64,000 bases of DNA from Pseudaquabacterium terrae (GTDB lineage Bacteria > Pseudomonadota > Gammaproteobacteria > Burkholderiales > Burkholderiaceae_C): contig NZ_JABRWJ010000017.1 of assembly GCF_013266755.1 (NCBI RefSeq), positions 1 to 64,000 on the forward strand, read 5' to 3'. Of this stretch, positions 37,740 to 58,430 are shown piece by piece; positions within the stretch are counted from its first letter, which is position 1, and each line of letters starts with the position of its first letter. The position numbers were made by a program, and so were the translations under genes. The notes below the pieces were generated by a model. The model worked only from the letters and a program-made list of their open reading frames with translations. It was not told the origin of the DNA and did not search any database.

Positions 37740-37747
37740 GGAGTTCC

Positions 37748-40442: not shown

Positions 40443-40470
40443 TTGGGATTGATATCCCAATATACAGGAC
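40443..40470. promoter_or_regulatory. Shared operator, site 1 (importer promoter)
   Basis: GATATCCCAATATACAGGAC at 40451-40470 aligns with sites at 44910 and 58411: ATATCCCA is identical and the second half is AGGA instead of GGGA. Its left half also pairs with TTGGGAT at 40443-40449. On the minus strand it ends a few bases upstream of a TTTACA -35 with a CATACT -10 at 17 bp spacing, a position that suits activation of the substrate-binding protein gene. Confidence 0.55.
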
Positions 40471-40486
40471 AAAATAGGGAAGACAC

Positions 40487-42166
40487 CTAGCCGTCGGCCG
40501 GGATGGCCGCGTCTGCGGTCCCGGCCTTCGCGCGCGCGGCGGCTCTCGCGCCTGCAGGCGCCGACAGCTCCGCGCGGGCAGCGGCCAGGATCATTTCGCT
40601 GGCCTTCTCGGCGATCATCACCGTCGGCGAATTGGTGTTGCCGGACACCAGCAGCGGCATCACCGAGCAGTCCACCACGCGCAGCCCGTCGACCCCCCGC
40701 ACGCGCAGCTGCGGGTCGACCACGGCCATCGGGTCCCGGCCCATCTTGCAGGTGCCCGACGGGTGGAAGATGGTCGTGCCGTGCTGCCTCGCGAAAGCCA
40801 GCAGCTCGTCGTCGCTCAGCGCCCCCGGCTCGGGCAGGAAGCGGCCCTCGATGTAGGGCCGCATGGCCTGCGTGTCCGCGATGCACTGCGTCAGCTTCAG
40901 GCCCTCGACGACGCAGCGCTGGTCGACTTCCGCCGACAGGTAGTTCGCCTGGATGACCGGGTCCGCCCGCGAATCGGTGCTGCAGATGGACAGGCTGCCG
41001 CGCGATGCCGGTCGCAACTGGCAGACCGACAAGGTGCAACCCGACCATTTGTGCGGATCGGTTCGCACGTAATCGGCCGACAGTGCCCCGAAGTGGAACT
41101 GCACGTCCGGCGTCTCGGACTCCGGCAGCACCTTCGCGAACATGCCGCCCGGCGTGGCCGTGTGCGCCAGCCAGCCGCGCTTGAACAGCAGGTAGGACAG
41201 GCCCAGGCCGGCGCGGCCGGTGAGCGTGCGCATGCGGTCGTTCAGTGTGATGGGCTTGCTCACCCGATAGACATGGCGCACCTGCAGGTGATCCTGGAGG
41301 TTCTGGCCCACGCCGGGCAAGTCGCTGACCAGCGGGATGCCCAGGCCGGCCAGCAACTTCGCGGGCCCGACGCCCGACAACTGCAGCACCTGCGGGCTCT
41401 GCAGCGCGCCGGCCGACAACACGACCTCGCGGTTCGCACCGACCTCCACCGTCTGCCCGTCCTGCTCGAACCGCACGCCCGTGGCGCGGCGGCCTTCGAA
41501 CAGCAGCCGGCTCACGTGGGCGCCGCTCTCGACCTGCAGGTTCGGGCGTCCCAGGGCCGGGCGCAGGTAGGCCACCGCGGTGCTGCAGCGCTTGCCGTGG
41601 CGGGTGAACATCTGGTAGTAGCCGACACCTTCCTGCTCGTCGCCGTTGAAGTCGTCGTTGCGCGGAATGCCCAGCTCCTGGCCCGCCGCGATGAAGGCCT
41701 CCATCAGCTCGTGACGCCCCTGCACGTCGGAGGACCACAGCGGCCCGTCGCCGCCGTGCAGCGGGCTCGGACCGCGGCTGTTGTGTTCGGACTTGATGAA
41801 GTACGGCAGCACGTCGCGCCACGACCAGCCGTCGCAACCGGCGGCGGCCCAGGCGTCGTAGTCCTGCCGCTGCCCGCGGATGAAGATCAGGCCATTAATC
41901 GAGCTGGAACCGCCGAGCACGACGCCGCGTGGCCACTTCAGCGAGCGGCCGGCCATCAGCGGGTCGGGCTCGGTGTGGAAGTGGCGGGCAAAGCGGGTCT
42001 CCACCGAGGTCTTGCCGTAGCCCAGCGGCGTGTGGATCCAGAACGAGCGGTCCTTGGGGCCGGCCTCGAGCAGCAGCACCGAGTAGCGGCCCGACTCGCT
42101 CAGCCGGTTAGCCATCACGCAGCCGGCGGAGCCGGCCCCGACGACGATGTAGTCGTAGCGCTTCAT
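40487..42166 (-). CDS. GMC-family FAD-dependent oxidoreductase
   Basis: This 559-residue flavoprotein resembles choline and alcohol dehydrogenases. It has [16 protein letters not shown] (FAD loop, residues 8-23), [15 protein letters not shown] as GMC signature 1, [18 protein letters not shown] as signature 2, and a C-terminal [10 protein letters not shown] segment with the catalytic His followed by [17 protein letters not shown]. It should oxidise a primary or secondary alcohol to an aldehyde or ketone. The ATG 42166 overlaps the stop of the monooxygenase fusion (ATGA), so the two are co-translated; a ketone product could directly feed the Baeyer-Villiger enzyme. The tail after residue 535 is Ala-rich. 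Confidence 0.92.
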
Positions 42167-44808
42167 TTCGCGCCTGCACCAATGGCTTCCGGCATCCGCA
42201 CCGGCGGCGTCGCCGGCGCCGTGCCGAAGGCGAAGCCGCGGTAGCCGTCGGCGACGACCTCGTCGCAGACCTTTCGATAGGCCTCGGCGCCGCCGACATA
42301 CGGCATGAACACGCGCGGCTTGCCCGGCACGTTGGTGCCCAGGTACCAGGAGTTCGCGCGCGGGTACAGGGTCTTGGCCGCCAGTCCGTTGACGTGGTCG
42401 ACCCAGTCGTCCTGGGCGGCGAGTTCGGGCTCGATCAGTGCCTGTCCGTTGCGCTCCATGTCCGCCAGGCACTGGGCGATCCAGTCCACGTGCTGTTCGA
42501 TCGACAGGATCATGTTGGTCAACACGCTCGGGCTGCCCGGACCGGTGACGAAGAAGATGTTGGGCAGGCCGTGCGTCATCAGGCCGAGGTAGGTGCGCGG
42601 GCCCGCGGACCACTGGTCGCGCAGCGTCACGCCGTCGCTGGTGCGGATATCGATCGCCAGCAGGGTGCCGGTCATCGCGTCGAAGCCGGTCGCGAAGATC
42701 AGCGCGTCGAGCGGATATTCCTTCTCCGCAGTGCGCACCGCGTCCGGCGTGATGACCTCGATCGGCGCGCGCTGGATGTCCACCAGCGTCACGTTGGCGC
42801 GGTTGTAGGTCTCGTAGTAGTCGGTGTCGAGGCAGACACGGCGCGTGCCGAGGAAGTGGCGCGGCACCAGCGCTTCGGCCACCACCGGGTCCTTGACGAT
42901 CTCGCGCACCTTGTCCTGCACGAACTTCGACACGGTCGCGTTCGCGGCCTCGTTGACCAGCAGGTCGTTGTAAACACGCGTGATGCTGGTGCGGCCATCA
43001 CCCCAGTGCCTCTCGTAGGCGGTGCGCCGCTCTTCCTCGGAGACCTCCAGCGCCGACTGGGTCGGCTTGCAGAAGGCGGCGATGCCCGAGATCGTGCGCT
43101 TGGCGGCCTCGCGGATCTCGTTGTAGCGGCGCTTCCAGGCCTGCTCCTCCTGCGGCGCGACCGGCCGGTTGCGTGCCGGCAGCGTGTACGGCGGCGTGCG
43201 CTGGAAGACGACCAAGTGCTCGGCCTGCTGCGCGACCAGCGGGATCACCTGGATCGCCGACGAGCCGGTGCCGATCACGCCGACGCGCAGCCCGGTGAAG
43301 TCGACGCCTTCGGCCGGCCACTGGCCGGTGTGGTAGCAGTCGCCGGCGAAGGACTCACGCCCGGCGATGTCCGGGAACTTGGTGGTCGACAAATTGCCCG
43401 AGGCCATCACGCAATAGCGGGCCTCGACGGTGTCGCCGGCGTCGGTGGTGACACGCCACAGGGCGCTGGCGCGGTCGAACACGGCCGACACGACGCGGGT
43501 GTTCAGGCGGATCAGCGGGCGCAGGTCGAACCGGTCGGCCACGTGGTTGATGTAACGCAGGATTTCGGGCTGGGCGGCGTAGCGCTCGCTCCACGACCAT
43601 TCCTGCTGCAGTTCCTCGGAGAAGGAGTACGAGTACTCGACGCTCTCGAAGTCGCAACGCGCACCGGGATAGCGGTTCCAGAACCACGTGCCGCCGACGC
43701 CGCTTCCGGCTTCGAAGCCCTGCACCTCCAGGCCGAGGCTGCGCAGCTTGTGCAGCGCATACAGCCCGCCGAAACCGGCGCCGACGACCACCGCGTCGAC
43801 GCGTCGGTGCCGAGGGGCCGGCGCATCGGCGCGCTGGGTGTTGAGCTTGTTCATGGGTACTCCTGAAGTGGCAAGGGATGGGGCCCGTCGGCAGACGGCG
43901 CGAATGGCGGCCGATGCTTCGTCCAGCATGCGGTCGGCGGTGTCGAGGATGTTCATCATTCGCACGCAGCCGTGCGTCACGCCCTCGTAGCGATGCAGTT
44001 CCACCGGAACGCCCGCGGACTGGAGGCGGCGCGCATATGCGACGCCCTCGTCGTGCAGCACGTCGTGTTCGGCCACCGCAACCCATGCCGGCGCGACACC
44101 GGCCAGATCGGTGGCATTGATCGGCGAGATGCGCGGATCGGCCCACGCCGACTCGGGCGCGTAGTGGCGATAGAACCAGCGCATGTCGGCGCTGGTGAGA
44201 AACGGGTAATCGCCGAACCGGGTGTAGCTGGGCCAGGCCATCGCGCTGTCGGTGGCCGGGTAGACGAGCAGTTGCAGCGTTATGTCGACGTCGTGGCGCA
44301 AGGCAGCCGCGGCGACGGTGGCCAGGTTGCCGCCCGCGCTGTCGCCCGCCACCACGAGGGGCAACGAGGCGCCCAGCCCGGCGATGCGGTCCAGGCCCCC
44401 GCCGGCGACAAAGCGCAGCGCGTCCTCCACGTCGTGCAGGCCCGCGGGGAAAGGGTGCTCGGGCGCCAGGCGGTAGTCGAGCAGCAGAACGGCGCAGCGG
44501 CTGCGGTCGGCCAGGTGGCGCGCCAGCGCGTCGAAGTCGTCGAGCGCACCGATGACCCAACCACCGCCGTGCAAGTACACCACCACGCCCTCGGGCACGG
44601 CCGAGGGCAACAACAACCTGGCCGGCACGCTGCCGCCGCGCGTGGGGATCGACAGCTCCCGTGCGGCGACGCTGGCGGGGCCTGCGCCGAGCAGCGGTCG
44701 GCCGCTGGCGATCAACGACCGCGCATCATTCGGCGAGCCTGATGACATATTGGGACGACATGATAGGCGATAGGCCTCACACAGATCGACCAACACCGGA
44801 TGCAGCAT
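42163..44808 (-). CDS. Esterase fused in frame to a Baeyer-Villiger monooxygenase
   Basis: One open frame of about 881 residues holds two enzymes. Residues 1-310 are an HSL-type esterase: HGGGW at 80-84, nucleophile S157 in GDSAGG, D249 and H279 as triad. From 319 (an internal Met) a complete 563-residue Baeyer-Villiger monooxygenase follows: GAGFGG at 343-348, the fingerprint [12 protein letters not shown] at 487-498 and a second Rossmann loop IGTGSSA. The BVMO should turn a ketone into an ester that the esterase then cleaves. The internal ATG 43854 has a strong AGGAG 7 bp upstream, so the BVMO may also be made alone. I start at ATG 44808 (AGGG site); the frame is open to 44919. The following GMC gene overlaps. 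Confidence 0.85.
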
Positions 44809-44909
44809 CAAGACCCTATCTCCATTGGTTGATTCTGCGAGGAGAAGCGCGTTTTTCACCGCTTTCGCAAGAACCGTTGTGGCAGTCATGTGTCCCATGT
44901 TATTATCTT

Positions 44910-44929
44910 CATATCCCATTTTATGGGAT
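44910..44929. promoter_or_regulatory. Shared operator, site 2 (monooxygenase/dehydrogenase promoter)
   Basis: CATATCCCATTTTATGGGAT contains perfect 7-bp inverted arms ATCCCAT and ATGGGAT around TTT (44913-44929). It aligns with sites at 40451 and 58411. It lies between the minus-strand esterase-BVMO gene and the plus-strand dehydrogenase at 45008, in an AT-rich stretch. It overlaps the most upstream possible ATG of the fusion (44919), which argues for the downstream start at 44808. Confidence 0.6.
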
Positions 44930-44930
44930 C

Positions 44931-44957
44931 AATGTTGCGGATTATAGGAGCAACATT
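44931..44957. promoter_or_regulatory. Second inverted repeat beside operator site 2
   Basis: AATGTTGC (44931-44938) and GCAACATT (44950-44957) are perfect 8-bp arms with an 11-bp spacer, 51 bp before the dehydrogenase ATG at 45008. The geometry resembles LysR-family sites, and a LysR gene (46664) lies nearby. This promoter may therefore have two regulators. Confidence 0.5.
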
Positions 44958-45007
44958 CCGATCGTCAAGCTGTGCGCGAAAGAAGAGCGCACTCAAAGGA
45001 AACACGC

Positions 45008-45784
45008 ATGGACCTGGGGCTTTCGGGGCGCACGGCGCTCATCACGGGCGCTGGCCGCGGCATCGGCAAGGCAGAGGCGGACGCGCTGGCTGCCGAGGGC
45101 GTCGCCATCGCGATCAACGACATCGACCCGGAGGCTGCGCAGGCGGCTGTCGAGTCGCTGCGCGGCATGGGCGTCAAGGCCTGCGCCTGCATCGGCGATG
45201 TGTCCGATGCCGCGCAGGCGGCCGCGGTGGTCGAACAGGCCGCCGAGCAGCTGGGGCGGCTGGACATCCTGGTCAACAACGCGGGCGCCGGCTGGCGCTA
45301 CATGGGCAAGGTCACCGAGGAGATGTCGGTCGACGACTGGGACAAGATCGTCGACACCCACCTGCGCAGCAGCTTCCTGTGCAGCAAGTACGCGATCCCG
45401 CACATGCGCCGGCGCGGCTTCGGCCGCATCGTCAACACCTCGTCGATCAACTACACCGGCGGCGGCCGCAGCGGCGTTGTCAACTATTCGGCGGCCAAGG
45501 CCGGCGTCGTCGGGCTGACCCGCACGATGGCCAAGGAAGTCGGCCGCCACGGCATCACGGCCAACGCGATCGCACCGGGTTATGTGGAAACGGCGCTGAC
45601 CGAGCGCTTCTCCGACGAGCGCCGCTCGATCATCACCGGCCAGAACCCGATCGGCCGCTACTGCCGTGTCGAGGAGATCGGCGCGCTGGTCGCCTACCTG
45701 TGCTCAGTGCAGGCGTCGTTCATCAATGGCGCGCTGGTACCGCTGGATGGTGGACGCAATGACTTCTATTGGGGCGACCACTGA
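45008..45784 (+). CDS. Short-chain dehydrogenase/reductase
   Basis: This 258-residue NAD(P)-dependent oxidoreductase shows ALITGAGRGIGKAEA as cofactor loop, NNAGAGWRYMG, the catalytic Ser in VNTSSINYTGG, YSAAK active site and a C-terminal SFINGALVPLDGG. It is a classical FabG-like SDR that could interconvert an alcohol and ketone. The ATG 45008 has AAAGGA 8 bp upstream. It is divergent from the esterase-BVMO gene and shares its operator region, so it is probably induced together with it. The next gene converges on it, 16 bp away. Confidence 0.9.
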   Translation: MDLGLSGRTALITGAGRGIGKAEADALAAEGVAIAINDIDPEAAQAAVESLRGMGVKACACIGDVSDAAQAAAVVEQAAEQLGRLDILVNNAGAGWRYMGKVTEEMSVDDWDKIVDTHLRSSFLCSKYAIPHMRRRGFGRIVNTSSINYTGGGRSGVVNYSAAKAGVVGLTRTMAKEVGRHGITANAIAPGYVETALTERFSDERRSIITGQNPIGRYCRVEEIGALVAYLCSVQASFINGALVPLDGGRNDFYWGDH

Positions 45785-45800
45785 GCCAGGCCGGGGCGCC

Positions 45801-46538
45801 TCAGCTGCGGTTGAGGCCCCCGTTGACCTGCAAGGTCTCGCCGGTGATGAAACTCGCGAGCGACGAACACAGGAAGGCGATCGCACCGGCCACCTCGGCC
45901 GGTTGCCCGTGACGGCCCATCGGCGTCTGCGCCATGTACACGGGGCCCCGCACCTCGATCAACTCCACCGCCATGCCGGTGTCGATGATGCCGGGCGACA
46001 CGCAGTTGACACGCGTCTTCGGCGCGAGCTCCATCGACAGGCTGCGCGTGAAGCTGATCACCGCGCCTTTGGAGGCCGAGTAATGCGCGTGCGAATGGCT
46101 GCCGCGGTGCCCCGAGATCGACGCGATGTTGACGATGGAGCTGTTCTCACGCAGGTGCGGGATGCTCGCCTTGCACACCAGGAAGGTGCCGTCGGCATTG
46201 ATGCGCATCACGTCCTGCCATTGGGCCAGGCTCATGTCCTGCACCAGCACCTTGGGGAAGACGCCGGCGGCATGCACCACGTGGTCGACCCCGCCGAAAC
46301 GTCGAGATGCCTGTTCGAACAGGCGCTCGCAATCGGCCGGCTCGGCCACGTTGACCGGCACGCACAGCGTGCGCGCAGGCGCGGCGCCGATGTCGTTGGC
46401 CGTGGCCATCAGCGCCGCTTCGGACAGGTCGGCCAGCACCAGGCTGGCCCCGGCCCCGTACATCAGGCGCGCCGTCTCGCGGGCGATGCCTCCGGCGGCA
46501 CCAGTGATGACAACGGTCTTGTCGGCGAACGAGATCAT
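45801..46538 (-). CDS. Short-chain dehydrogenase/reductase
   Basis: This 245-residue SDR carries VVITGAAGGIARETARLM, where the third position of the usual GxxxGIG reads GGIA, HAAGVFPKVLVQD in the NAG position, NIASISGHRG with the catalytic Ser, YSASK and FITGETLQVNGG. It is a distinct paralogue of the dehydrogenase at 45008. It is divergent from the LysR regulator at 46664; an inverted repeat ATCGAAC/GTTCGAT (46618-46650) lies between them and may be that regulator's site. The substrate is unknown; context suggests an alcohol intermediate of the same pathway. Confidence 0.9.
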   Translation of the reverse strand: MISFADKTVVITGAAGGIARETARLMYGAGASLVLADLSEAALMATANDIGAAPARTLCVPVNVAEPADCERLFEQASRRFGGVDHVVHAAGVFPKVLVQDMSLAQWQDVMRINADGTFLVCKASIPHLRENSSIVNIASISGHRGSHSHAHYSASKGAVISFTRSLSMELAPKTRVNCVSPGIIDTGMAVELIEVRGPVYMAQTPMGRHGQPAEVAGAIAFLCSSLASFITGETLQVNGGLNRS

Positions 46539-46663
46539 GGCAGCTCCAACAACGGATGCGGTCCATCCGTATTGGTCACAGTGTGCCGGCCGGCGCTGGC
46601 GAGTGCCAACGAGAAATATCGAACGACTCCCTTCGCATTTGCTGTTCGATCTCAGGGCCGGCC

Positions 46664-47557
46664 ATGAACATCAAGCAGATCGAGACCTTCGTACGCATCG
46701 TCGAGGTGGGCAGCTTCCAGGCGGCGGCCGGCGCGCTCTACGCATCGCCATCGACCGTCTCGGTGCGGGTGAAGGAACTCGAGCGCTTCATCGGCACCGA
46801 GCTGTTCGACCGCAGCTTCCACCGCGCCCAGCTCACCGCCAAGGGGCATGAGTTCTATGCCCATGCGAGGCAGCTCGTGGACTTCACCACGTCCCTGTCG
46901 CAACAGATGCGCGCCCCGCAGGCGGTGACCGGGCTGGTTCGGCTGGGCGTCGTCGGGGTGGTCACCGACACCTGGCTGCCGCAGTTGGTGCGCTCGCTGC
47001 GCGAGGCCTATCCCGGCGTCACCCTGCGCCTCGACGCCAACCTGACGCGGCTTCTGACGGAACGCGTCTCGGACGGCAAGCTCGACCTGGCGATCGTCGC
47101 CGGCAGCGTCACCGACTCCGAACTCCAGGGCGTCGTGCTGGGTGTCGAGCGCTTCGTCTGGATGACCGGACGCAACGGCCCGCAGGCCCCCGCAGGCGGC
47201 GCACCGATGACGCCGCTCGAGCTGTCGCGCCATCCGGTGCTGGCGTTGAGCGAAGACTCGCACCACCACCCGATCGTGAAGAACTGGTTCCGCGAAGGCG
47301 GGGTCAGCCTGAACCCCTCGGTGTCGTGCAACAACATCAGCGCGCTGGCGGCGCTCACGATGAAAGGCCTGGGCGTCAGCCTGCTGCCGCGCCTGGGCTA
47401 CCGCGAGGCCCTCGCTGCGGGCCGGCTGCTCGAGCTGGCCACCACACCCGCGCTGCCGCAGGTGCAGTTCTCGATCGTCTACCGCAAGGAGCGCGTCCCG
47501 CCGCTGGCCGAGGCGATCACCGCGATGGCGCAGGCGGCCAGCGCTCAGCCCCTGTAG
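46664..47557 (+). CDS. LysR-family transcriptional regulator
   Basis: This 297-residue protein has an N-terminal winged helix-turn-helix (MNIKQIETFVRIVEVGSFQAAAGALYASPSTVSVRVKELE) and a periplasmic-binding-like effector domain from about residue 90 (VRLGVVGVVTDTWLPQLVRSL). It is similar along its length to the regulator at 50519-51403, including the GTWL/DTWL and HHP segments, so the two look like paralogues. The ATG 46664 starts homology directly. It is divergent from the SDR at 45801 and likely controls it. Its 3' end overlaps the convergent IclR gene by 13 bp. Confidence 0.92.
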   Translation: MNIKQIETFVRIVEVGSFQAAAGALYASPSTVSVRVKELERFIGTELFDRSFHRAQLTAKGHEFYAHARQLVDFTTSLSQQMRAPQAVTGLVRLGVVGVVTDTWLPQLVRSLREAYPGVTLRLDANLTRLLTERVSDGKLDLAIVAGSVTDSELQGVVLGVERFVWMTGRNGPQAPAGGAPMTPLELSRHPVLALSEDSHHHPIVKNWFREGGVSLNPSVSCNNISALAALTMKGLGVSLLPRLGYREALAAGRLLELATTPALPQVQFSIVYRKERVPPLAEAITAMAQAASAQPL

Positions 47558-48270
47558 CCCATGGCATGCGAAATCTGCGCGGCCTGCTTCTTGACCGCCG
47601 GCGCGAGTTCGTTGAGCTTTCCGATGCCCAGCCGTTCCAGCGGCCCGGAGATGCCGAGTGCCGCGACCACCTGGTTCAAGCCGTTGAAGACGGTCACGGC
47701 GAGCCCGCCGACCGATTCGCGCCACTCGCCCCGGTTGATCGCATAGCCGACGCGCACGATCCGGGCCAGTTCTTCCTTCAACACCGGCAAGGACGTGATC
47801 GTGGCGGGCGTGTGGCGCTGCATTTCGCTGGCGTAGCGCTCGAGGTAGCCGTCGGGCTGGTAGGCCAGCATGGCCTTGCCGGTGGCCACCGCGTACGCCG
47901 GCGCGCGCCCGCCGATGGCGGTGTACGACCGCACGGGTTGCGGGCTGTCGATCTTGTCGATGTAGACGACCGAAAAGCCTTCGAGGACCGACAGGTGCAC
48001 CGTCTCGCCGGTCTCGTCGGCCAGCGTCCGCATGAACGGCGGCGCGAAGGTCCGCACATCGAAACGCGACAACTGCTTGGTGCCCATTTCGAACAGCTTC
48101 ATCGTCGGATAGTAGCTGCCGTTGGCCTCGTTCTTCGCGAGGTAGTGCGCATGCGCCAGCGTCTGCAGCGTGCGGTGAACGTTGCTCTTGGTGAGCTTCA
48201 GATCATGGGACAACTCTTCGATGGTTCGGGCGCGCCCCTCTTGCTCGACGATGGCCTCGAGCACGGCCAA
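47545..48270 (-). CDS. IclR-family regulator with unclear start codon
   Basis: The protein has an N-terminal winged helix (TIEELSHDLKLTKSNVHRTLQTL) and a C-terminal IclR effector domain (YVAT-type segments: VVYIDKIDSPQPVRSYTAIGGRAPAYAVATGKAMLA and a final VVAALGISGP). Coordinates use the TTG at 48270, but conserved sequence continues upstream as IDKTLLKG, and a perfect AGGAGG lies at 48299-48304. Between that site and the TTG no ATG, GTG or TTG is in frame; the codons at the correct distance are ATC at 48297 and 48294. Either an ATC start is used or the start codon mutated. It is a candidate regulator of the catabolic block. Confidence 0.88.
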   Translation of the reverse strand: MAVLEAIVEQEGRARTIEELSHDLKLTKSNVHRTLQTLAHAHYLAKNEANGSYYPTMKLFEMGTKQLSRFDVRTFAPPFMRTLADETGETVHLSVLEGFSVVYIDKIDSPQPVRSYTAIGGRAPAYAVATGKAMLAYQPDGYLERYASEMQRHTPATITSLPVLKEELARIVRVGYAINRGEWRESVGGLAVTVFNGLNQVVAALGISGPLERLGIGKLNELAPAVKKQAAQISHAMGYRG

Positions 48271-48321
48271 ACCCTTGAGCAGCGTCTTGTCGATGATGTC
48301 CTCCTGTGTTGATCAGGCGTC

Positions 48322-48340
48322 CATGTGCCCGTATCACATG
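48322..48340. promoter_or_regulatory. Inverted repeat upstream of the IclR gene
   Basis: CATGTG (48322-48327) and CACATG (48335-48340) form an inverted repeat with a 7-bp spacer, about 30 bp before the IclR ribosome site. It overlaps a TATCA/TGATA pair at 48332-48343. Position suggests autoregulation. It does not match the shared TATCCCA operator. Confidence 0.35.
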
Positions 48341-48398
48341 ATAAGACGTTGCGACAAAGAAATGGTCCGAATCAATCGATGCGCGAGGGCCCCATGCA

Positions 48399-50450: not shown

Positions 50451-50484
50451 CCCTGGCCTGACCTGCCCCTTGTGCAGGCCGTGA

Positions 50485-50504: not shown

Positions 50505-50518
50505 GGATCAGCCTCTGG

Positions 50519-51403
50519 TCAGCCCCTGCCGCGCCGCACCGCCTGCACCGCCTCGCGCACCACGGCAGCGAAGCCGGTGCGGCGCTCCAGCGCCGATACC
50601 AGCGTGAGCTCGACGCCGGGAATCTCCGGCAGGGTCTGCAGCACCTCGAGCCGACCGAGCGAGATCTCCGGCCCGAAGTGATCGGCGGGCAGCAACCCCA
50701 CGCCCAGCCGCTGCATCACCAGCCGGGCGATGAGGTCCATGCTGTTGCAGGTGAGCGCCGGCCGGAAACGCAGGCCGGCGGCCTTGAACCACGCGGTGAG
50801 CACCGGGTGGTGGTACGACTGCGGTGGAAAGGCCACGATCGGCCATTCGGCGAGTTCCTGCGGCCCGAGCGGCCGGCGCGGCACCTCAAGCGCCGGGCTG
50901 GCCATCCAGACGAAGCGGTCCTCGCCGACCACGTCGCTGTGCAGGGCCTCGTCGGCGATGCGTCCGGCGACGATCGCCACGTCCAGGTGCCCGGCCTTCA
51001 GGCGCTGGGCCAGCACCTTGGTCAGCGCCACCTCCACCGCCAGTTCCAGCGCCGGATGGCGCGCGCGCAGCTCGGCGATCAGCGCGCTGAGCCACGTGCC
51101 GGCGACCAAGCCGACCGCGCCGAGCCGCAGCGTGCCGGTGAGCGAGCCGCGGTCGCCGAGCCGGTCGCGCAGCTGGTCCAGCAAGGTGACGATCTGCTGT
51201 GACATGTCGTAGAGCTGCCATCCCTTCGGTGTCAGCCGGGCGCGGTGCGCACTGCGATCGAACAGCCCGACACCGAAGTAGTGCTCCAGGTCCTTCATCC
51301 GCGTCGACACCGTCGACTGGGTGGTGTGCAGCGCCTCGGCGGCAGCGGCGAAGCTGCCCTTGTCCACGATCTGCAGGAAGGTCTCGAGGTGCTTGAGGTT
51401 CAT
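50519..51403 (-). CDS. LysR-family transcriptional regulator
   Basis: This 294-residue protein starts MNLKHLETFLQIVDKGSFAAAAEALHTTQSTVSTRMKDLE, a standard LysR helix-turn-helix, followed by an effector domain with LRLGAVGLVAGTWLSALIAEL. It resembles the regulator at 46664 throughout. Homology begins at ATG 51403; the frame is open 48 bp further. It is divergent from the TauD-type dioxygenase (147-bp spacer), the likely target. The spacer contains no copy of the TATCCCA operator. Confidence 0.92.
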   Translation of the reverse strand: MNLKHLETFLQIVDKGSFAAAAEALHTTQSTVSTRMKDLEHYFGVGLFDRSAHRARLTPKGWQLYDMSQQIVTLLDQLRDRLGDRGSLTGTLRLGAVGLVAGTWLSALIAELRARHPALELAVEVALTKVLAQRLKAGHLDVAIVAGRIADEALHSDVVGEDRFVWMASPALEVPRRPLGPQELAEWPIVAFPPQSYHHPVLTAWFKAAGLRFRPALTCNSMDLIARLVMQRLGVGLLPADHFGPEISLGRLEVLQTLPEIPGVELTLVSALERRTGFAAVVREAVQAVRRGRG

Positions 51404-51550
51404 GGCGCAATGCCTCTGTGCCGGCTTAGGCGCGGGCGTCTTCATCGCCATGCGCGATGGAAACCGATCGCCCGATCTCGCCGACGCCGCGGCGAGCGCT
51501 TCCTACACTGGACCGCATCGGCAGACATCCGGCATCCACCGGGAGCAGAC

Positions 51551-52564
51551 ATGGGCAGCAGCCAAGGCATTTTGAACGAGACGGCGCACCGCAGCGCCTC
51601 GGACATCCCGCGCGCGCCGCTGGCCGGCCGCGTAGCGTGGGAGAGTGCGAGCTTGAAGCCGGACGACGGCATCATCACGCTGCCCGACGCCGCGCGCCGC
51701 GAGATCGACGCGGTGGTCGCCGTGCTGCGCGACAACCCGCTGGCCCTCGAGATGCTCGAGCCCGACGCGTTCCGGCTCGACGCCTGCCGGCGCCTGATGG
51801 CCACGGTGCGCGAGACGCTGCGCGACGGCGTCGGCTTCGTCATCATCGACAGGCTGCCGATGGACGTGTACTCGAAGGAGGACGCCAAGGCGGCGTACTG
51901 GCTGCTGTCGCAGCTGGTGTCGCGGCCGGTGGCGCAGAGCTGGGACGGCAAGCTCGTCTACGACGTGCGCGACCTCGGCAAGCCGCCGGGCAACGGCGTG
52001 CGGCCCGACGTGACGAACGCCGAGCAGAACTTCCACACCGACAACAGCTACAACCTGTGCGCGCCCGACTACGTGGCGCTGCTGTGCCTGCGGCCGGCCA
52101 AGGAAGGCGGCATCAGCAGCATCGTGAGCTTCCACTCGGTCTACAACGAGATGCTGCGCAAGCATCCGCAGCTCATCGACCGGCTCTTCGCGCCCTATCT
52201 GTTCGACCGCAACCGAGAGCACGCGCCCGACGCGCCGCCGGTGATCAGCCATCCCCTGATGCAGGTGGTGGACGGGCGCCTGAGCTGCCGGCTGTCGCAT
52301 CGCCACGTGATCAACGGCTACCGGATGGCGGGCATCGAGCTCGACCGGCTGGGCGAGGATGCGCTCGAGACGCTGGAGCAGACGATGCGCGAAGCGCGCT
52401 TCGCCCGTGAGTTCTTCTTCGAGCCGGGACAGATCCAGATCGTCGACAACCGGCGCCTGGGGCACCGGCGCACCGGCTACGTCGATTTCACGCAGGAGGA
52501 TCGCAAGCGGCACCTGGTGCGCCTGTGGCTGCGCCAGGCCGGCCGGCGCTTCTATAACGGCTGA
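51551..52564 (+). CDS. TauD/TfdA-family Fe(II)/2-oxoglutarate dioxygenase
   Basis: This 337-residue enzyme has the two-His-one-carboxylate metal site: HTD at residues 162-164 (NFHTDNSYNL) and a distal His near 305 in RRLGHRRTGYVDF, with the following Arg expected to bind 2-oxoglutarate. SFHSVYNEMLRKHP is a clavaminate-synthase-like segment. Such enzymes hydroxylate a C-H bond next to a carboxylate, sulfonate or amine, often releasing an aldehyde. The ATG 51551 has GGAG 6 bp upstream. Its divergent LysR regulator supports inducible expression. The substrate is not predictable; taurine is possible but the family is broad. Confidence 0.87.
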   Translation: MGSSQGILNETAHRSASDIPRAPLAGRVAWESASLKPDDGIITLPDAARREIDAVVAVLRDNPLALEMLEPDAFRLDACRRLMATVRETLRDGVGFVIIDRLPMDVYSKEDAKAAYWLLSQLVSRPVAQSWDGKLVYDVRDLGKPPGNGVRPDVTNAEQNFHTDNSYNLCAPDYVALLCLRPAKEGGISSIVSFHSVYNEMLRKHPQLIDRLFAPYLFDRNREHAPDAPPVISHPLMQVVDGRLSCRLSHRHVINGYRMAGIELDRLGEDALETLEQTMREARFAREFFFEPGQIQIVDNRRLGHRRTGYVDFTQEDRKRHLVRLWLRQAGRRFYNG

Positions 52565-52583
52565 AGGCAGCGGCCACGGCGGC

Positions 52584-52640
52584 GCGGCGCCCCTCGCGGC
52601 GCCCCTCGCGGCGCCCCTCGCGGCGCCCTCACGGCGCCCC
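52584..52640. repeat. 12-bp tandem repeat between convergent genes
   Basis: Three exact copies of GCGGCGCCCCTC (52584-52619) are followed by an 11-base copy lacking one C and a partial fifth copy. The array fills most of the 84-bp gap between the dioxygenase and the convergent acyl-CoA ligase gene. Each unit contains GGCGCC, so the array can fold into GC-rich hairpins. Confidence 0.85.
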
Positions 52641-52648
52641 ACCGCCGG

Positions 52649-54172
52649 TCAGGCGGACGGCTGCCTGACGCGCGCCGCCAGCAGCTTGCGATCCACCTTG
52701 CCCACCGAGTTCTCCGGCAGCGCCTCCACGTAGGCATAACCCGCCGGTTTGTGGATGCGCGACAGCTCGGCGGTCACCGCCCGGCCCATGCACTCGTCGT
52801 CCAGCCGCAGGCCCTCTTCATCGCGGCTGCGCACGACGAAGGCCCACGGCACTTCGCCCAGGTCGGCATCGGGCCGGCCCACCACGCAGCAGGCCTGCAC
52901 GCCCGGCACGCGGCACAGCACCTCCTCGATCAGGTTCGGTGACAGGTTCTCGCCGCCGCGGATGATGACTTCCTTGATGCGGCCGGTGATCTGCAGGTAG
53001 CCCTCGGCGTCGAAGCGGCCGAGGTCGCCGGTGTGCAGCCGGCCCTCGATCGGGCGCGGCCGGCCCCCCGACTGCTCGTCCAGGTAACCCAGCATGAGGC
53101 CGGGCCCGTCGACGCAGATCTCGCCGTCGCGCCCCGGGCCCTCGATCGGCCGGCCGGCGCCATCGGCCAGCACCACCTGCTGGCCCGCGAGCACCGTGCC
53201 CACGGTGCCGATGCGGCGCTGCCCCGGCGGATTCATGGTCGAGGTGCAGGTGGCTTCCGACAGCCCGTACGACACCAGCAGCTCGACGCCGAGCTGGCGC
53301 TCGACCCGCCGGTGCAACTCCTCGGTGATGGGGGCCGAGCCGCAGCGCGCCATGCGCAGCGACGCCAGCGCCTCGGGCGCGAAGTCGCAGGCCAGCATGC
53401 GCGAGTACATCGTCGGCACGCCGGTGATGATGGTCGGCCGGTGGCGCGCCATCAAGGCCGACATCTCGTCGGCCTTGAAGCGCTCGGCAATGACCACCGA
53501 CGCACCGGCCAGCAAAGGCGCGAAGAGCTGGTTGTTCACGCCGTTGGTGTGGTACAGCGGCATCACGTGCAGCAGCCGGTCCTGCGGTCCGAGCTGCGTA
53601 TGGCGCATCACGCCGGCCGCGTTGGCGAGCAGGCCGCGGTGGCTCTGCAGCACGCCCTTGGGCTTGCCGCTGCTGCCGGAGGTGAAGAGCAGGAAGCCCT
53701 CGTCGCCGCCCGCGATGTCGGCGGCCCAGAACGGCTGCGCCGGCGGCAGCGCGTCGATGTGCAGGCGGTCGACGCCGGGCAGGTCCGCGAGCTTGTCGTC
53801 GGCGGCATGCGCCTCGTCCAGCAGGAGCCGGTTCAGGCGCGTGATGGCAAAGCGCCGCAGCGTCTCGTCTCGCCCCAGCCGCGGCTCCAGCACGCACGGG
53901 CATGCGCCGCAGGCCAGCACCGCCAGCAGCGCCACCGCGGCGGGCAGCGAGCGCTGCATGGCAATCGCGACGCGGTCGCCGCGACCGATGCCGTGCGCAT
54001 GCAGGCGGCCCGACAGGCTGCCGACCTCGGCCGCCAATTCGCCGTAGCTGAGCATGCGATCGGAGCCGACCAGCGCGGGCAGGCCGGCGCGCGGCGCGCG
54101 CTGCCAGGCCTCGGCGAAGGCCGGAACCAGGCTAACGCAGTCGGATGGCGGCATCACGTTCGAACTGTCCAT
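52649..54172 (-). CDS. AMP-forming acyl-CoA synthetase
   Basis: This 507-residue enzyme activates a carboxylic acid to its CoA thioester through an acyl-AMP. Motifs are FLLFTSGSSGKPKGV (AMP loop), VSYGLSEATCTS, the hinge GRIKEVIIRGGENLSPNLIEE, and the catalytic Lys in ENSVGKVDRKLL near the C-terminus. ATG 54172 lies 41 bp inside the end of the CoA-transferase beta gene; ATG 54154 is an alternative. It is the last gene of the six-gene minus-strand CoA operon. The acid substrate is unknown. Confidence 0.92.
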   Translation of the reverse strand: MDSSNVMPPSDCVSLVPAFAEAWQRAPRAGLPALVGSDRMLSYGELAAEVGSLSGRLHAHGIGRGDRVAIAMQRSLPAAVALLAVLACGACPCVLEPRLGRDETLRRFAITRLNRLLLDEAHAADDKLADLPGVDRLHIDALPPAQPFWAADIAGGDEGFLLFTSGSSGKPKGVLQSHRGLLANAAGVMRHTQLGPQDRLLHVMPLYHTNGVNNQLFAPLLAGASVVIAERFKADEMSALMARHRPTIITGVPTMYSRMLACDFAPEALASLRMARCGSAPITEELHRRVERQLGVELLVSYGLSEATCTSTMNPPGQRRIGTVGTVLAGQQVVLADGAGRPIEGPGRDGEICVDGPGLMLGYLDEQSGGRPRPIEGRLHTGDLGRFDAEGYLQITGRIKEVIIRGGENLSPNLIEEVLCRVPGVQACCVVGRPDADLGEVPWAFVVRSRDEEGLRLDDECMGRAVTAELSRIHKPAGYAYVEALPENSVGKVDRKLLAARVRQPSA

Positions 54173-54866
54173 CGGGGTCGAGCTCCGCCAGCGCGCGGCG
54201 CTCGCGTTCGGTGGGTGGCGCGGTGGGGTGCGCGCCATGGGCGTCGAACTCGAAGCCAGTGCGCTGCTGCACCTCCTCGAGCGACGCTTCGGGATGCCAG
54301 GATTGCAGTGCCAGCCGGCCGTCGCGCTTGACGAACACCGCGATCGGCGTCACGACGCCATGGAAGCCGCCCCAGGAGGTGCGGAAGTCCAGCTTGGGCA
54401 CCAGCGTGCGGCGCGAGTGCTCGGTGCGCCAGGTGCAGGCGCGCCGGGCGGTGGGCAGCATCACCGCGCCGCCGCCGCCGCCCGGCAGGCGCACCTTGGG
54501 CTCGTGCCAGTTGCCGATCACCGAGTTGTTGGCGCAGCCCTCGCCGTCGATCTGCGCCGCGCCGAGAAAGGTGAGGTCCATGCGGCCGCGCGTGCAGAGG
54601 TCGTAGAAGTCCTCGTTCGCGAAGATCGACGCCGAGTGCTCGGCCAGCACCGGGTCGGAGCTGGACAGCGGCACGTGCGAGGGGCGCGGGTCCACGCCGC
54701 CGGCGACGTTGATGTAGACGAAGTCCCAGTCGTAGGCCTGCTTGGCGAGCAGGCAGGCCAGCATCGGCAGCGTGGAGTTGACGCCGCTGAAGGTGATCTC
54801 GTCGGGGCGGATGAAGCGCGCGAGGTTGGTGGCGATGTAGGAGAAGCCGGACCAGGGGTTGTTCAT
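54132..54866 (-). CDS. CoA-transferase family protein, beta subunit
   Basis: This 244-residue protein resembles the B subunits of glutaconate CoA-transferase and the steroid-ring hydrolase IpdAB: ATNLARFIRPDEITFSGVNSTLPMLACLLAK at the start and MDLTFLGAAQIDGEGCANNSVIGN in the middle, then a glycine run and LDFRTSWGGFHGVVTPIAVF. The ATG 54866 overlaps the alpha-subunit stop (ATGA), as expected for a heteromer. Whether it transfers CoA or opens a ring, as IpdAB does, cannot be settled here. Confidence 0.85.
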   Translation of the reverse strand: MNNPWSGFSYIATNLARFIRPDEITFSGVNSTLPMLACLLAKQAYDWDFVYINVAGGVDPRPSHVPLSSSDPVLAEHSASIFANEDFYDLCTRGRMDLTFLGAAQIDGEGCANNSVIGNWHEPKVRLPGGGGGAVMLPTARRACTWRTEHSRRTLVPKLDFRTSWGGFHGVVTPIAVFVKRDGRLALQSWHPEASLEEVQQRTGFEFDAHGAHPTAPPTERERRALAELDPDGQFERDAAIRLR

Positions 54867-55693
54867 GCGCTCACCTTCGTCTCGGGCCCCTGGGCGAGGT
54901 GGGCCTGCAAGGCCTCGTCGCCGGGGCGCAGGTAGGCTTCCACCGCCGGGTAGTCGATCTCGTAGTGCGGCCAGCAGGAGCCCGGCCACGCGCCCTGCGG
55001 CATCACGGCGAAGGCCTCGACCATGAAGTACGGCACCACGGTCGATTCCGGCTGTGCGGTGAAGACGCTGCTGTCGACCAGCTTCTCGGCCACCACCAGC
55101 ACGCTCTTCGCGGCGCGGCTCATGATGCGGTCCCAGTGGGAGGTGCCGGCAACGCGCACGTTGCCCCATTCGTCGACCTCGCTCGCATGCAGTACCGCGA
55201 AGTCGGGCTGGATCGCCGGGATCACCCACACCGGCTCGCCGGCGCCGTAGGGGTCGGGCAGCCGATGCCAGCCGTTGAGCTGCGGGATGTCGCTGCCGTG
55301 CAGGCCGCCGCAGGGCTGGAACGGCACGCCGAACGCGGCCGCGCGCAGGCCCGCGGTGAGGCTGGCGCAGGCGTGCTCTTCCAGTACCACCTCGCGCCGC
55401 TCGATCGCCTTGCGGTAGGAAGGCGCCAGGCCGAAGTTGCCTTCCATCGCGACGATGCCGGCGCGCACCTTGCGCACGGCGCCGGCGCGGCACAGCAGGT
55501 CGATGTCGTAGCCGGGCGATTGCTTGATGATCTCCAGGTCCTTGCGGCCCTGGCGGATCAGCTCGCGCACGAACGAGAACGGCCCGCGGTGCAGGAAGCT
55601 GCCGCCCAGCGCGAGGGACGCGCCGTCGGGCACCAACTGCACCAGCGCGGACAGCGACCTGCGCTTGTCCTTGCCTGCGAAACCAGAAGGCAT
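54863..55693 (-). CDS. CoA-transferase family protein, alpha subunit
   Basis: This 276-residue partner has the CoA-transferase A fold: KRRSLSALVQLVPDGASLALGGSFLHRGPFSFVRELI, then LCRAGAVRKVRAGIVAMEGNFGLAPSYRKAIERREV, and a mid segment with FAVLHASEVDEWGNVRVAG. It resembles GctA/IpdA. The ATG 55693 follows the crotonase-gene-side gap: its start lies 9 bp downstream of the crotonase stop, so the order on the transcript is crotonase, alpha, beta, ligase. Activity and substrate are inferred only at family level. Confidence 0.86.
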   Translation of the reverse strand: MPSGFAGKDKRRSLSALVQLVPDGASLALGGSFLHRGPFSFVRELIRQGRKDLEIIKQSPGYDIDLLCRAGAVRKVRAGIVAMEGNFGLAPSYRKAIERREVVLEEHACASLTAGLRAAAFGVPFQPCGGLHGSDIPQLNGWHRLPDPYGAGEPVWVIPAIQPDFAVLHASEVDEWGNVRVAGTSHWDRIMSRAAKSVLVVAEKLVDSSVFTAQPESTVVPYFMVEAFAVMPQGAWPGSCWPHYEIDYPAVEAYLRPGDEALQAHLAQGPETKVSA

Positions 55694-55702
55694 GTCTTCT
55701 CC

Positions 55703-56422
55703 TTACTTGCCCAGGTACCGGCGCAACCGGTCCTTCAGGCCGAAACGTGCGGCCGAGCGCACCAGGCTGGCCAGGTCGGCATCGGGCTCGTCCTCGCCCA
55801 GCACGCGGTACAGCGCGCCGCGGGTGGCGTCGTCCAGCACGTCGGCTTTGGCCTCGGCCTCGGCGACGAGGCCGTCCCACTGCTCGGGGGCGGCGATGCG
55901 GTTGACGAAGCCCATGTCGCTCGCGCGCTGCGCGTCGAAGCTGCCGACCTCCTCGAGCACGCTGCGCGCCACCGCATTGCCGACGATGCGGCCGAAGCGG
56001 CGCGTGCCGAGCACGAGGCCGAATTTCAGGCCCGGCATGCGGAACACCGCATCCGGCGCGGCGACACGCTGGCGGCACACCGCGAACAGGTCGACGCCGG
56101 CGCCGAACACCTTGCCGTGCGCCAGGCCCAGCGTCTGCGCCGGCGATTGCGCCACCGCCTGCAGCAGCATCTCGATGCGCACGAAGCGCAGCACCAGGTC
56201 GCCTTCGCTCTGCGCCTCCAGGTCCGACAGGTCGAAGCCGGCGCTGAAGCTCTTGCCGGCGCCGCGGAAGACCAGCAGTCGGGCCCCCTGTGCATGCGCC
56301 TGCTCGACCGCCTGCAGCAGCTCGTCGACCAGCGTGCCGTTCAGCGCATTGAGCTTCTCGGGCCGGTTCAGCGTGAAGGTCCAGCGGCGGCCGGCCGAGC
56401 GGACGTCGAGTTCATTGCTCAT
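55703..56422 (-). CDS. Crotonase-family protein lacking the usual catalytic glutamates
   Basis: This 239-residue protein has the enoyl-CoA hydratase/isomerase fold: FTLNRPEKLNALNGTL, the oxyanion-hole segments KSFSAGFDLSDL and HGKVFGAGVDLFAVC, and the FRMPGLKFGLVLG segment. In hydratases the last motif reads PE with a catalytic Glu; here it is PG. The other Glu (GxGxEL) is Asp. Classical hydration is therefore unlikely, and another crotonase reaction such as isomerisation, decarboxylation or C-C cleavage is more plausible. ATG 56422 is used. It lies between the aldolase and the CoA-transferase alpha gene. Confidence 0.85.
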   Translation of the reverse strand: MSNELDVRSAGRRWTFTLNRPEKLNALNGTLVDELLQAVEQAHAQGARLLVFRGAGKSFSAGFDLSDLEAQSEGDLVLRFVRIEMLLQAVAQSPAQTLGLAHGKVFGAGVDLFAVCRQRVAAPDAVFRMPGLKFGLVLGTRRFGRIVGNAVARSVLEEVGSFDAQRASDMGFVNRIAAPEQWDGLVAEAEAKADVLDDATRGALYRVLGEDEPDADLASLVRSAARFGLKDRLRRYLGK

Positions 56423-56442
56423 CGGGTGGGGTCTCCACAATT

Positions 56443-57222
56443 TCAGTCGCGGAAGTCGCTGCCGAGCCGGTCCAGCATGCGCAGCAGCGAGGTCCAGGCG
56501 CGCGCGCCCTTGGTGCGCGTGGCATCGTGGAACTGGGCGTCGGCCGTGTCGGCGGCGGCGGCCGGCATGGCGACGACGTTGTCGATGCCGCCGGCCATCG
56601 CGTCCACCTGGATCTGGCAGGCGCACTCGAGGTAGTACATGACCTCGAAGGCCTCGTGCGTGCTGGCGCCCACGGCGAGCAGCCCGTGGTTGCGCAGGAT
56701 CATCGCCGGCGCGTGGGGCCCCAGGTCGCGCACCAGCCGCTCCTGCTCGTCCAACTCCAGCGCGATGCCTTCGTAGCCGTGGTAGGTCACGCGCTGCTGC
56801 ACGCGCATGGCATGCTGGCTCAGCGGCAGCAGGCCGCACTTCATCGCCGAGACGGCGACGCCGGCGCGCGAGTGCGTGTGCATGATGGCGTGCGCGTCCG
56901 GCCGCGCACGGTGGATGCAGCTGTGGATGACGTAGCCGGCGCGGTTGATGCCCAGGCCGGTGCTGTCCGACAGGATCTCGCCGTCGAGCGTGAGCTTGAC
57001 CAGCGACGACGCGGTGATCTCGTCGAACATCAGTCCGAACGGATTGATGAGGATGTGCTCGGTGCCGGGGATCTTGGCGGAAAAGTGGGTGTAGATCAGG
57101 TCGGTCCACTTGAAGTGAGCGGCCAGCCGATACGCCGCAGCGAGGTCGATGCGCGCCTCGCGCTCGGCCGGGTCCATCGCGGCCATGCTGGCCACGCGTT
57201 GCAGGTCGACGGCGGCGCTCAC
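56443..57222 (-). CDS. Class II aldolase/adducin family protein
   Basis: This 259-residue protein has the fuculose-aldolase/adducin fold: YTHFSAKIPGTEHILINPFGLMFDEITASSLVKL, the metal-binding HTHSRAG segment near residue 125, and ILRNHGLLAVG with a further metal His. Members catalyse aldol cleavage, epimerisation or decarboxylation, and many are unassigned. The GTG 57222 has a near-perfect AGGAGGT 6 bp upstream and overlaps the CaiB stop (GTGA). It is second in the CoA operon, next to a crotonase, so a C-C bond step on the activated intermediate is a reasonable guess. Confidence 0.87.
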   Translation of the reverse strand: MSAAVDLQRVASMAAMDPAEREARIDLAAAYRLAAHFKWTDLIYTHFSAKIPGTEHILINPFGLMFDEITASSLVKLTLDGEILSDSTGLGINRAGYVIHSCIHRARPDAHAIMHTHSRAGVAVSAMKCGLLPLSQHAMRVQQRVTYHGYEGIALELDEQERLVRDLGPHAPAMILRNHGLLAVGASTHEAFEVMYYLECACQIQVDAMAGGIDNVVAMPAAAADTADAQFHDATRTKGARAWTSLLRMLDRLGSDFRD

Positions 57223-58397
57223 AGTCCCACCTCCTCGACACGGGCTTCGGCCGGGCGCAGCGGGCCGAGAATCTCGTCGTTGTGCTCGCCCAAAGCCGGC
57301 GGGCGCATGCGCACCGCGGCGCCGTCGGCGCCCCAGCGCACCGGCGAGCCGAAGGTGCGCGTCGACTTGCCGTTGGGCAGCGTCAGCGGCTGTATCCAGC
57401 CCATGTGCGCGACCTGCGGATCCTCGAGCACCTGCGAATAGGTGTTGATCGGCGCACACGGCACGCCGGCGGCGCGGAAGCGCTCCAGCCAGGTGGTCGT
57501 GTCCGCCTCGGTGAACATCGTCTCCAGGATCATGAGCAGCGCGTCCTGGTGCTGCGCGCGCGAGGTCGGCGAGACGAAGCGCTCGTCGGCCAGCAGGTCC
57601 GGCCGGTCCAGCACCTCGCACACCGCGCGCCACAGCGCGTTGTTGCCGGCGGCCATGCCGAAGTAGCCGTCGCGGCTGCGGAAGACACGGTACGGCGCGT
57701 TGCGCGGATGCGCCGAGCCGAGCGGCTGCGGATCGCGCCCGCTGCCGAAGTACTCCGAGGTCTGCAGCGCCGCGATGCCGAGCGTGGCGCCGAGCATCGA
57801 CACGTCCAGGTGCACGCCGCGGCCGGTGTTCTCGGCCGCGCGCAGCGCGGTCGCGATCGAGAACGCACCGTAGAGGCCGGCGGAGAAGTCGGCCAGCGGC
57901 ACGCCGCACTTCACCGGGGCGCCGCCGGGCTCGCCGGTGATGCTCATGATGCCGCTCATCGCCTGCAGCGTGAGGTCGAAGCCGCCTTCGTTCGAGCGCG
58001 GCCCCGACTGCCCGTAGGCCGAGATCGAGCAGTAGATCAGCCGCGGATTGAGCGCCGACAGTGCCTGGTAGCCGAGCCCGAGCCGGTCCATCACGCCCGG
58101 TCGGTTGTTCTCGATCAGCACGTGCGCCGTGCGGGCCAGCTCGCGCAGCAGTGCCGCATCGCCCGCGTCCTTCAGGTTCAGCGTCACCGAGCGCTTGTTG
58201 CGGTTGAGCGAGGCGAAGTTCTCGCTGTAGCCGTCGTTGATCGGCGGCCAGGTGCGCAAGGTGTCGCCGCCGTCGGGGTTCTCGACCTTGATGACGTCGG
58301 CGCCCATGTCGGCCAGCAGCATCGCGCAATACGGGCCCGCGGCGACGTTGCAGACCTCGATGACCTGGATGCCCTCGAGCGGCAGTCTCATGCTCAT
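57219..58397 (-). CDS. CaiB/BaiF-type (class III) CoA-transferase
   Basis: This 392-residue enzyme shows the family pattern: LEGIQVIEVCNVAAGPYCAMLLADMGADVIKVENPDGGD, LNRNKRSVTLNLKD, the ADFSAGLYGAF segment carrying the catalytic Asp, and GVHLDVSMLGA. It moves CoA between carboxylic acids without free intermediates. It leads the six-gene minus-strand operon (CaiB, aldolase, crotonase, CoA-transferase alpha and beta, ligase). ATG 58397 has AAAGGA 6 bp upstream, and the shared operator at 58411-58430 lies directly behind that. Confidence 0.92.
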   Translation of the reverse strand: MSMRLPLEGIQVIEVCNVAAGPYCAMLLADMGADVIKVENPDGGDTLRTWPPINDGYSENFASLNRNKRSVTLNLKDAGDAALLRELARTAHVLIENNRPGVMDRLGLGYQALSALNPRLIYCSISAYGQSGPRSNEGGFDLTLQAMSGIMSITGEPGGAPVKCGVPLADFSAGLYGAFSIATALRAAENTGRGVHLDVSMLGATLGIAALQTSEYFGSGRDPQPLGSAHPRNAPYRVFRSRDGYFGMAAGNNALWRAVCEVLDRPDLLADERFVSPTSRAQHQDALLMILETMFTEADTTTWLERFRAAGVPCAPINTYSQVLEDPQVAHMGWIQPLTLPNGKSTRTFGSPVRWGADGAAVRMRPPALGEHNDEILGPLRPAEARVEEVGL

Positions 58398-58410
58398 GTT
58401 CGTCCTTTGT

Positions 58411-58430
58411 GATATCCCAAATATTGGGAC
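58411..58430. promoter_or_regulatory. Shared operator, site 3 (CoA operon/tctC promoter)
   Basis: GATATCCCAAATATTGGGAC has perfect inverted arms TCCCAA and TTGGGA around ATA (58415-58429). It shares ATATCCCA and GGGA at the same spacing with sites at 40451 and 44910. It lies 13 bp before the CaiB ATG and about 40 bp upstream of the tctC -35. A nearby GAATC/GATTC pair at 58433-58451 also occurs, with different spacing, near site 1 (40355-40375). Confidence 0.6.

Follow-up and report, generated by a model that had tools for sequence, protein, structure and literature searches.

Regulators of the IclR family, which includes repressors, activators and dual regulators, bind DNA as dimers or tetramers and have predicted tandem sites 18-22 bp apart (Suvorova and Gelfand 2021, PMC8222616). 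For group 1 of the family the published subgroups of operators are TGT-11-ACA, GTT-11-AAC, WTT-11-AAW and NGT-12-ACN (PMC8222616). Here we analyzed a window of 64,000 nucleotides from Pseudaquabacterium terrae (bases 1-64000 of contig NZ_JABRWJ010000017.1, hereafter C9, of the 8.04-Mb host genome), in which an earlier note had pointed out a 20-bp operator shared by three promoters. Judged from sequence comparison, these sites are very probably the operators of the IclR-family protein encoded at 47545..48270 (- strand), which would switch together the promoters of an ATP-binding cassette (ABC) importer, of a divergent Baeyer-Villiger monooxygenase (BVMO) and short-chain dehydrogenase (SDR) pair and of a divergent caiB-tctC pair.

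The three 20-mers, GATATCCCAATATACAGGAC (40451-40470), CATATCCCATTTTATGGGAT (44910-44929) and GATATCCCAAATATTGGGAC (58411-58430), were found as reported and all fall in promoter gaps between recognised genes. Their common core is a 15-bp palindrome, TCCYR-N5-YRGGA, present as TCCCAATATACAGGA in operator 1 (40455..40469), as TCCCATTTTATGGGA in operator 2 (44914..44928) and as TCCCAAATATTGGGA in operator 3 (58415..58429), the centre of which lies 25 bp 5' of the start of the caiB open reading frame (ORF); none of these sites is assigned to a strand. The window contains three copies of ATATCCCA, where 0.25 would be expected, a count not attained in any of 100 shuffles. Two of the sites had been called perfect inverted repeats, which is true of their arms (7 bp at 44910 and 6 bp at 58411, around a 3-bp centre) and not of the whole 20 bp, which is asymmetric. 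The 40451 site is imperfect (TCCCA-N5-CAGGA), one side being degenerate; upstream of it an inverted third box, TGGGA (40444-40448), gives the three-box site TGGGA-N6-TCCCA. Operator 2 has an extra direct half-site, TCCCA (44893-44897), 21 bp upstream. The remark that there is no other copy is correct in the window for the strict core, but a weaker copy, TCCTGATTTATGAGA, lies at 40358..40372 (no strand assigned), its centre 97 bp from operator 1 and nearer the importer start, with a weight-matrix score of 19.3 that ranks sixth on contig C9, and two strict copies stand past the window end. Similarly, the AT-rich 8-mer thought to be rare is not rare genome-wide on its own (about 30 copies expected in 8 Mb when the window rate is scaled up), while the whole palindrome is. 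TCCYR-N5-YRGGA fits 44 catalogued sites, and its box spacing is of the IclR type when set against the consensus given in PMC8222616.

With the refined search pattern TCCYRNWWWNYRGGA, exactly five matches were obtained in the host genome, all on C9 and within 36 kb (40455, 44914, 58415, 68823 and 76683), and exactly four in Piscinibacter (Ideonella) sakaiensis 201-F6 (6.1 Mb), all on one contig, within 18 kb and in the homologous cluster. The reversed pattern, which served as control, had no match in either genome. Under random placement the probability of finding the five host sites within 36 kb is about 2e-9, and that of the P. sakaiensis cluster about 1e-7. Many copies inside coding regions, which had been named as a sign against a true operator, were not seen, as neither genome holds a refined-pattern copy outside the cluster. 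Other patterns were tried and abandoned: the strict symmetric ATATCCCAN4TGGGATAT had the wrong spacing and no matches, TCCCAN5TGGGA caught two of the five host sites plus two GC-centred matches elsewhere, and ATCCCAN7GGAT with two mismatches was too loose (2276 strand hits), even if it revealed the first site past the window. The second one was found in the stretch adjoining the window. The regulon, estimated at 18 kb before, thus stands but is larger than stated, since its sites span 36 kb and continue beyond the window.

When 40 genomes were searched, the pattern matched in 23 including the host, that is, in 22 of 39 relatives, as 1-9 scattered matches. Such scatter, and the AT-richness of intergenic stretches, are what would be expected if the sites were chance AT-rich palindromes or terminator or hairpin elements of promoter gaps, and a palindrome fitting the pattern away from the cluster was also found in the genome G182. 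This palindrome, TCCCGCTTTGCGGGA, is dispersed with its variants in about 26 copies on many contigs of this 7-Mb genome, and may be an intergenic repeat that has nothing to do with the operator. We give the chance explanation next to no probability: site counts near IclRs of the clade defined below are about 100 times the first-order Markov expectation, and the pattern matched in five and was missing from 15 of the 20 genomes of the same genus, in which no IclR exceeds about 38% identity.

The P. sakaiensis cluster is syntenic with that of the window (IclR 86%, LysR 68%, SDRs 75-81%, BVMO 66-80%, GMC oxidoreductase 82%, importer protein 82%, and the caiB operon). Its sites occupy the same three gaps, SDR/BVMO, GMC/importer and caiB/tctC, with TCCTGAATTGCAGGA in the gap orthologous to that of operator 1 and TCCCGATATGCAGGA in that of operator 2; a fourth site lies in the lysR/SDR2 gap, which carries none in the host. 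Two of the P. sakaiensis sites, 16891 and 28436, are predictions from outside the fitting set. Conservation upstream of orthologous genes, the lack of which had been named as another warning sign, was therefore found for three of three window gaps in P. sakaiensis, and the caiB-promoter site is present in 7/7 genomes mapped, all of which were chosen for having an IclR ortholog. P. sakaiensis contig 22 also encodes a second IclR paralog (L157, 5117-5824), 60% identical to the window IclR. It lies some 3 kb away from the first one and lacks an adjacent strict operator.

Beyond these genomes the operator follows the IclR protein. IclR orthologs at 58-63% identity occur in five of 399 genomes of the order, and all five carry fixed-pattern sites within 22 kb of iclR (10 sites against 0.36 expected from genome-wide counts); four genomes with IclR homologs at 41-49% have no site on the iclR contig. 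A wider family search covered 268 genomes of many genera, 117 of them with an IclR match, from which 40 loci of at most 12.7 kb each were hand-picked across genera, the relatives being unevenly sampled and genus-mates not independent. Expected counts for loci come from a first-order Markov model of each locus, and a gene is called absent when the fetched stretch does not contain it. Where the IclR is at least 54% identical to that of the window, 17 of 24 loci have 24 sites (0.22 expected); below 54%, a single site (0.17 expected) was found in one of 16 loci, and this locus (53%) sits inside the clade on the tree. A maximum-likelihood tree was built of 53 IclR rows (matches of at least 40% identity, with a site counted only if at least four of its five centre bases were A or T, and with four site-less rows from loci of only 3.7 kb). 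All 26 site-bearing rows fall in one clade of 34 rows (support 100/98) and none among the other 19. In clade loci the operator is often directly upstream of iclR, and in one genus this position is occupied by a site in all 28 of the further best-scoring loci.

Both an IclR (47545) and a LysR (46664) protein had been named as candidate regulators; comparative evidence selects the first and argues against the second. LysR-family genes do lie within the cluster (46664..47557, + strand, recognised by domain scan, and a second one at 50519..51451), and with one P. sakaiensis site in the lysR/SDR gap either protein could be the owner of the operator, IclR being an incidental neighbour. However, an ortholog of the first LysR exists in only 3/7 operator-bearing genomes (the other four give 34% at best, or nothing at E 1e-40), and none at 55% or more lies within 6 kb of iclR in any of 25 clade loci, counts that cover the first LysR, the second not having been searched for in other genomes. 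Presence of the operator tracks the identity and clade of the IclR, and in many cases its place is immediately before iclR; ownership by LysR was thus rejected as highly improbable.

A different objection is that the sites are bound by an unlinked regulator whose palindrome is similar, and that IclR merely hitchhikes with the caiB cluster. caiB at 55% or more is found in 20 of 25 further clade loci; caiB and iclR thus travel together, and the two are hard to separate. The sister IclRs, however, are beside caiB too (10 of 14 loci) and have TTC instead of TCC sites, so that a different IclR goes with a different operator although the target genes are the same. The TTC sites were first noticed in the loci of these sisters as low-scoring hits of the form TTCYR-N5-YRGAA, with one base per half-site changed. 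After removal of L219, which has two kinds of IclR, and of L163, the 30 clade loci had 34 TCC sites in 23 loci (0.31 expected) and one TTC site (0.27 expected), and therefore do not show the T that published group 1 operators have at this half-site position; the 14 sister loci had 14 TTC sites in 10 loci (0.13 expected) and no TCC site (0.14 expected). TCC palindromes beside more distant IclRs also point to the IclR family, and on these grounds we consider an unlinked regulator quite improbable.

Because the TTC pattern was noticed on the loci just counted, held-out loci are the only fair test of it. We summed 24 of 25 such loci, dropping L239 with its two kinds of IclR, and split them by the residue that follows His-Arg in the recognition helix; L240, where this residue is unreadable, and L244, which has Val, were counted with the Leu-like type. 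The Thr-type loci had nine TCC sites in five of eight loci (0.10 expected) and one TTC site, whereas the others had 13 TTC sites in eight of 16 loci (0.10 expected) and no TCC site. In the window IclR this residue is number 48, and it is Thr in 34/34 clade members and in 1/19 sisters. We tentatively propose, with the balance tilting slightly against so complete a scheme, that two sister groups of IclRs, often beside the same caiB/crotonase genes, use insulated codes, TCC-N9-GGA and TTC-N9-GAA, that the switch between them is coupled to a Leu-to-Thr change (Thr48) at the second position past the conserved recognition-helix His, and that this allows both to coexist in a genome without cross-talk. 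The coupling of Thr48 to the code is imperfect. With Thr in both, L238 (39% IclR) has a TCC site, but L245 (43% IclR) lacks one and has a TTC site instead. Thr48 was thus rejected as sole determinant of the TCC code, and other residues must contribute. How IclR proteins change their DNA specificity could be tested cleanly on this TCC/TTC contrast.

Several observations weigh against assigning the sites to the IclR protein of the window. Of the nine sites that the refined pattern finds in the host and P. sakaiensis, seven had served to fit it. As regards autoregulation, neither genome has a site at its own iclR gene, unlike the 28 loci of one genus given above. Of the 24 loci with an IclR at 54% or more, seven are without the strict pattern; a looser matrix gave these seven a score of at least 14.8 in four cases, 10.3 and 8.0 in two, and at most 1.9 in L208. 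In addition, one TCC palindrome lies within about 150 bp of the distant IclRs of G016, G023 and G030 (25-32%) and of L238. G016, G023 and G030 were examined together with a fourth stretch, G035, and alignment recovered the IclR in two of the four. In three genomes other than the host, the single TCC palindromes near distant IclR genes have the positions L254 1864, L255 2741 and L256 2276. TCC operators are therefore not confined to the clade, and the idea that they are exclusive to it was abandoned, which also makes the scheme of insulated codes slightly less probable; their occurrence outside it may reflect either descent or convergence. The best IclR-homolog loci of 29 relatives had neither a TCC nor a TTC site (0/29). 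With these points considered, a single predicted regulon is supported by the motif that the sites have in common, by its restriction to the cluster and conservation in orthologous promoters, and by its strong association with the IclR clade. The claim that one regulator serves these scattered operons is borne out by sites that are confined to the cluster and stand upstream of orthologous genes, and an 18-kb hunch has become a defined regulon with a named regulator. The operator matrix obtained can be reused for this IclR clade, members of which occur in many of the Burkholderiales genomes searched, the polyethylene terephthalate degrader P. sakaiensis among them.

Direct binding by the IclR protein, its effector and the sign of regulation are matters that we infer. 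In the mechanism proposed, an IclR dimer, or a tetramer that spans sites spaced by 21 bp, would bind the 15-bp palindrome TCCYR-N5-YRGGA, and an acid or coenzyme A (CoA)-ester intermediate of the pathway would bind the C-terminal domain of IclR and so switch the three promoters together. The closest site pairs given by the weight matrix (less than 60 bp apart) are exactly 21 bp apart in four cases out of four, one of them in a sister-IclR locus. At the best predicted promoters the operator centre is at +13 (BVMO) and +19 (caiB), just downstream of the predicted -10, which would make IclR a repressor there. The importer promoter, with a moderate score of 9.0, has the centre at -60, and its P. 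sakaiensis counterpart at -61; there IclR would be an activator. A simple repressor fits poorly with the 42 sites taken together. Among strong predicted promoters, a site centre at 0 to +25 shows weak enrichment (5 against 2.3, reached in 5 of 60 shuffles) and one at -55 to -70 clear enrichment (6 against 0.6, in none of 60 shuffles), although three of these six are close relatives. Given such mixed positions in a family with dual regulators, it is possible that IclR has a dual role, repressing or activating according to the promoter. A TGCTATGTT conserved in 30 loci of one genus directly precedes the site at iclR; read as a putative extended -10, it too would fit repression.

The IclR protein itself matches PF01614 (8.9e-48) and PF09339 (2.6e-07), both above cut-off. 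Its frame (48270-48310, - strand) has no ATG, GTG or TTG where the relatives start (MDKTLLKG); AGGAGG is followed there by ATC ATC GAC AAG, and an in-frame stop codon lies upstream. ATC ATC GAC is found in P. sakaiensis too. It is possible that translation starts at the ATC codon at 48294, 24 bp upstream of the ORF start. The proposed target of operator 1 is the SBP_bac_5 solute-binding protein (38700..40301, - strand; PF00496, 5.5e-65) of a peptide-type ABC importer, the permeases and ATPase of which follow at 35076..38689 (- strand; BPD_transp_1 and ABC_tran matches). On the other side lies a choline-dehydrogenase-like GMC oxidoreductase (40487..42220, - strand, from domain scan, with an approximate start). 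Operator 2 would serve an esterase (Abhydrolase_3)-BVMO fusion ORF (42163..44919, - strand; 66-80% to P. sakaiensis), the probable start of which is near 44808, and the divergent SDR (45009..45784, + strand, from domain scan). In the fusion the esterase domain precedes a BVMO part closest to phenylacetone monooxygenase, and this natural fusion could turn a ketone into acid and alcohol; a literature search for esterase-BVMO fusions turned up only a review. Operator 3 would serve the caiB operon (52649..58397, - strand), made of caiB (57219-58397), crotonase, CoA-transferase A and B and acyl-CoA ligase genes, and the divergent gene for a TctC solute-binding protein (58557..59525, + strand; PF03401, 8.7e-60). 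Next to the operon, a TauD/TfdA-family dioxygenase gene (51245-52564, + strand; PF02668, 3.3e-37) was recognised, and a TauD-family gene adjoins the P. sakaiensis cluster as well; the ORF at 51503-52642 (- strand) is antisense to this gene and was rejected. Past the window, genes for TctC, an MR_MLE enzyme, acyl-CoA ligase, crotonase and acrylyl-CoA reductase (AcuI, above the NCBIfam cut-off) lie downstream of the 76683 operator. Also downstream of this operator, near the acrylyl-CoA reductase gene, C9 74973-75515 (- strand) encodes a product at 57% to a protein that matches 3-mercaptopropionate dioxygenases.

The regulator probably coordinates the import and breakdown of a carbon compound. 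Its conserved partners are caiB and crotonase: caiB accompanies IclR in 7/7 mapped genomes as well as in the 20 further clade loci mentioned, whereas the BVMO does so in 2/7 genomes and in 0/25 of these loci, within the stretches fetched. The importer, the GMC oxidoreductase, the esterase-BVMO fusion and the SDRs are host additions to this core. Ketones, suggested earlier as candidate inducers, were rejected as general inducers because this conserved core does not include the BVMO. As to the substrate, the genes give no more than a lead towards an organosulfur or propionate-type compound: a 3-mercaptopropionate dioxygenase (Mdo), a CoA-transferase and enoyl-CoA hydratases (Ech) are used together in the catabolism of 3,3'-thiodipropionate by Variovorax paradoxus TBEA6 (PMC6370202), and proteins of like type are encoded in the regulon. 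Genes of unassigned pathway, namely the esterase-BVMO fusion, the GMC oxidoreductase, the CaiB/crotonase/CoA-transferase operon and the thiol-dioxygenase-like gene, are thereby brought into one functional unit.

A literature search for the regulon turned up no paper with both search terms and led back to PMC8222616. Similar types of protein occur in the regulon and in the V. paradoxus thiodipropionate system, but no acyl-CoA dehydrogenase-like AcdA was found among the proteins scanned here, and the main text of PMC6370202 does not mention IclR. The operator of E. coli IclR, TGGAAATNATTTCCA (Table 1 of PMC8222616), is likewise a 15-bp palindrome with 5-bp arms and a 5-bp centre; it differs in sequence and, in our reading, in the opposite orientation of its boxes, and it belongs to the glyoxylate bypass and not to a catabolic cluster such as this one. 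The likeness to the group 1 operators described in PMC8222616 is closer: an odd-length palindrome with a W3 centre, YR/RY flanks and 5-5-5 geometry, three-box sites, tandem sites about two turns apart, sites near the start codon, and CoA-transferase genes of the AtoDA type as frequent targets. The four listed subgroups, the only ones compared, keep a T where the present sites have a C (TCC against TTY, GTTY and TGTY in our alignment), and the clade may be among the 181 supplementary ortholog groups of that study. By this comparison the regulon is of an ordinary kind, with an interesting contrast in specificity.

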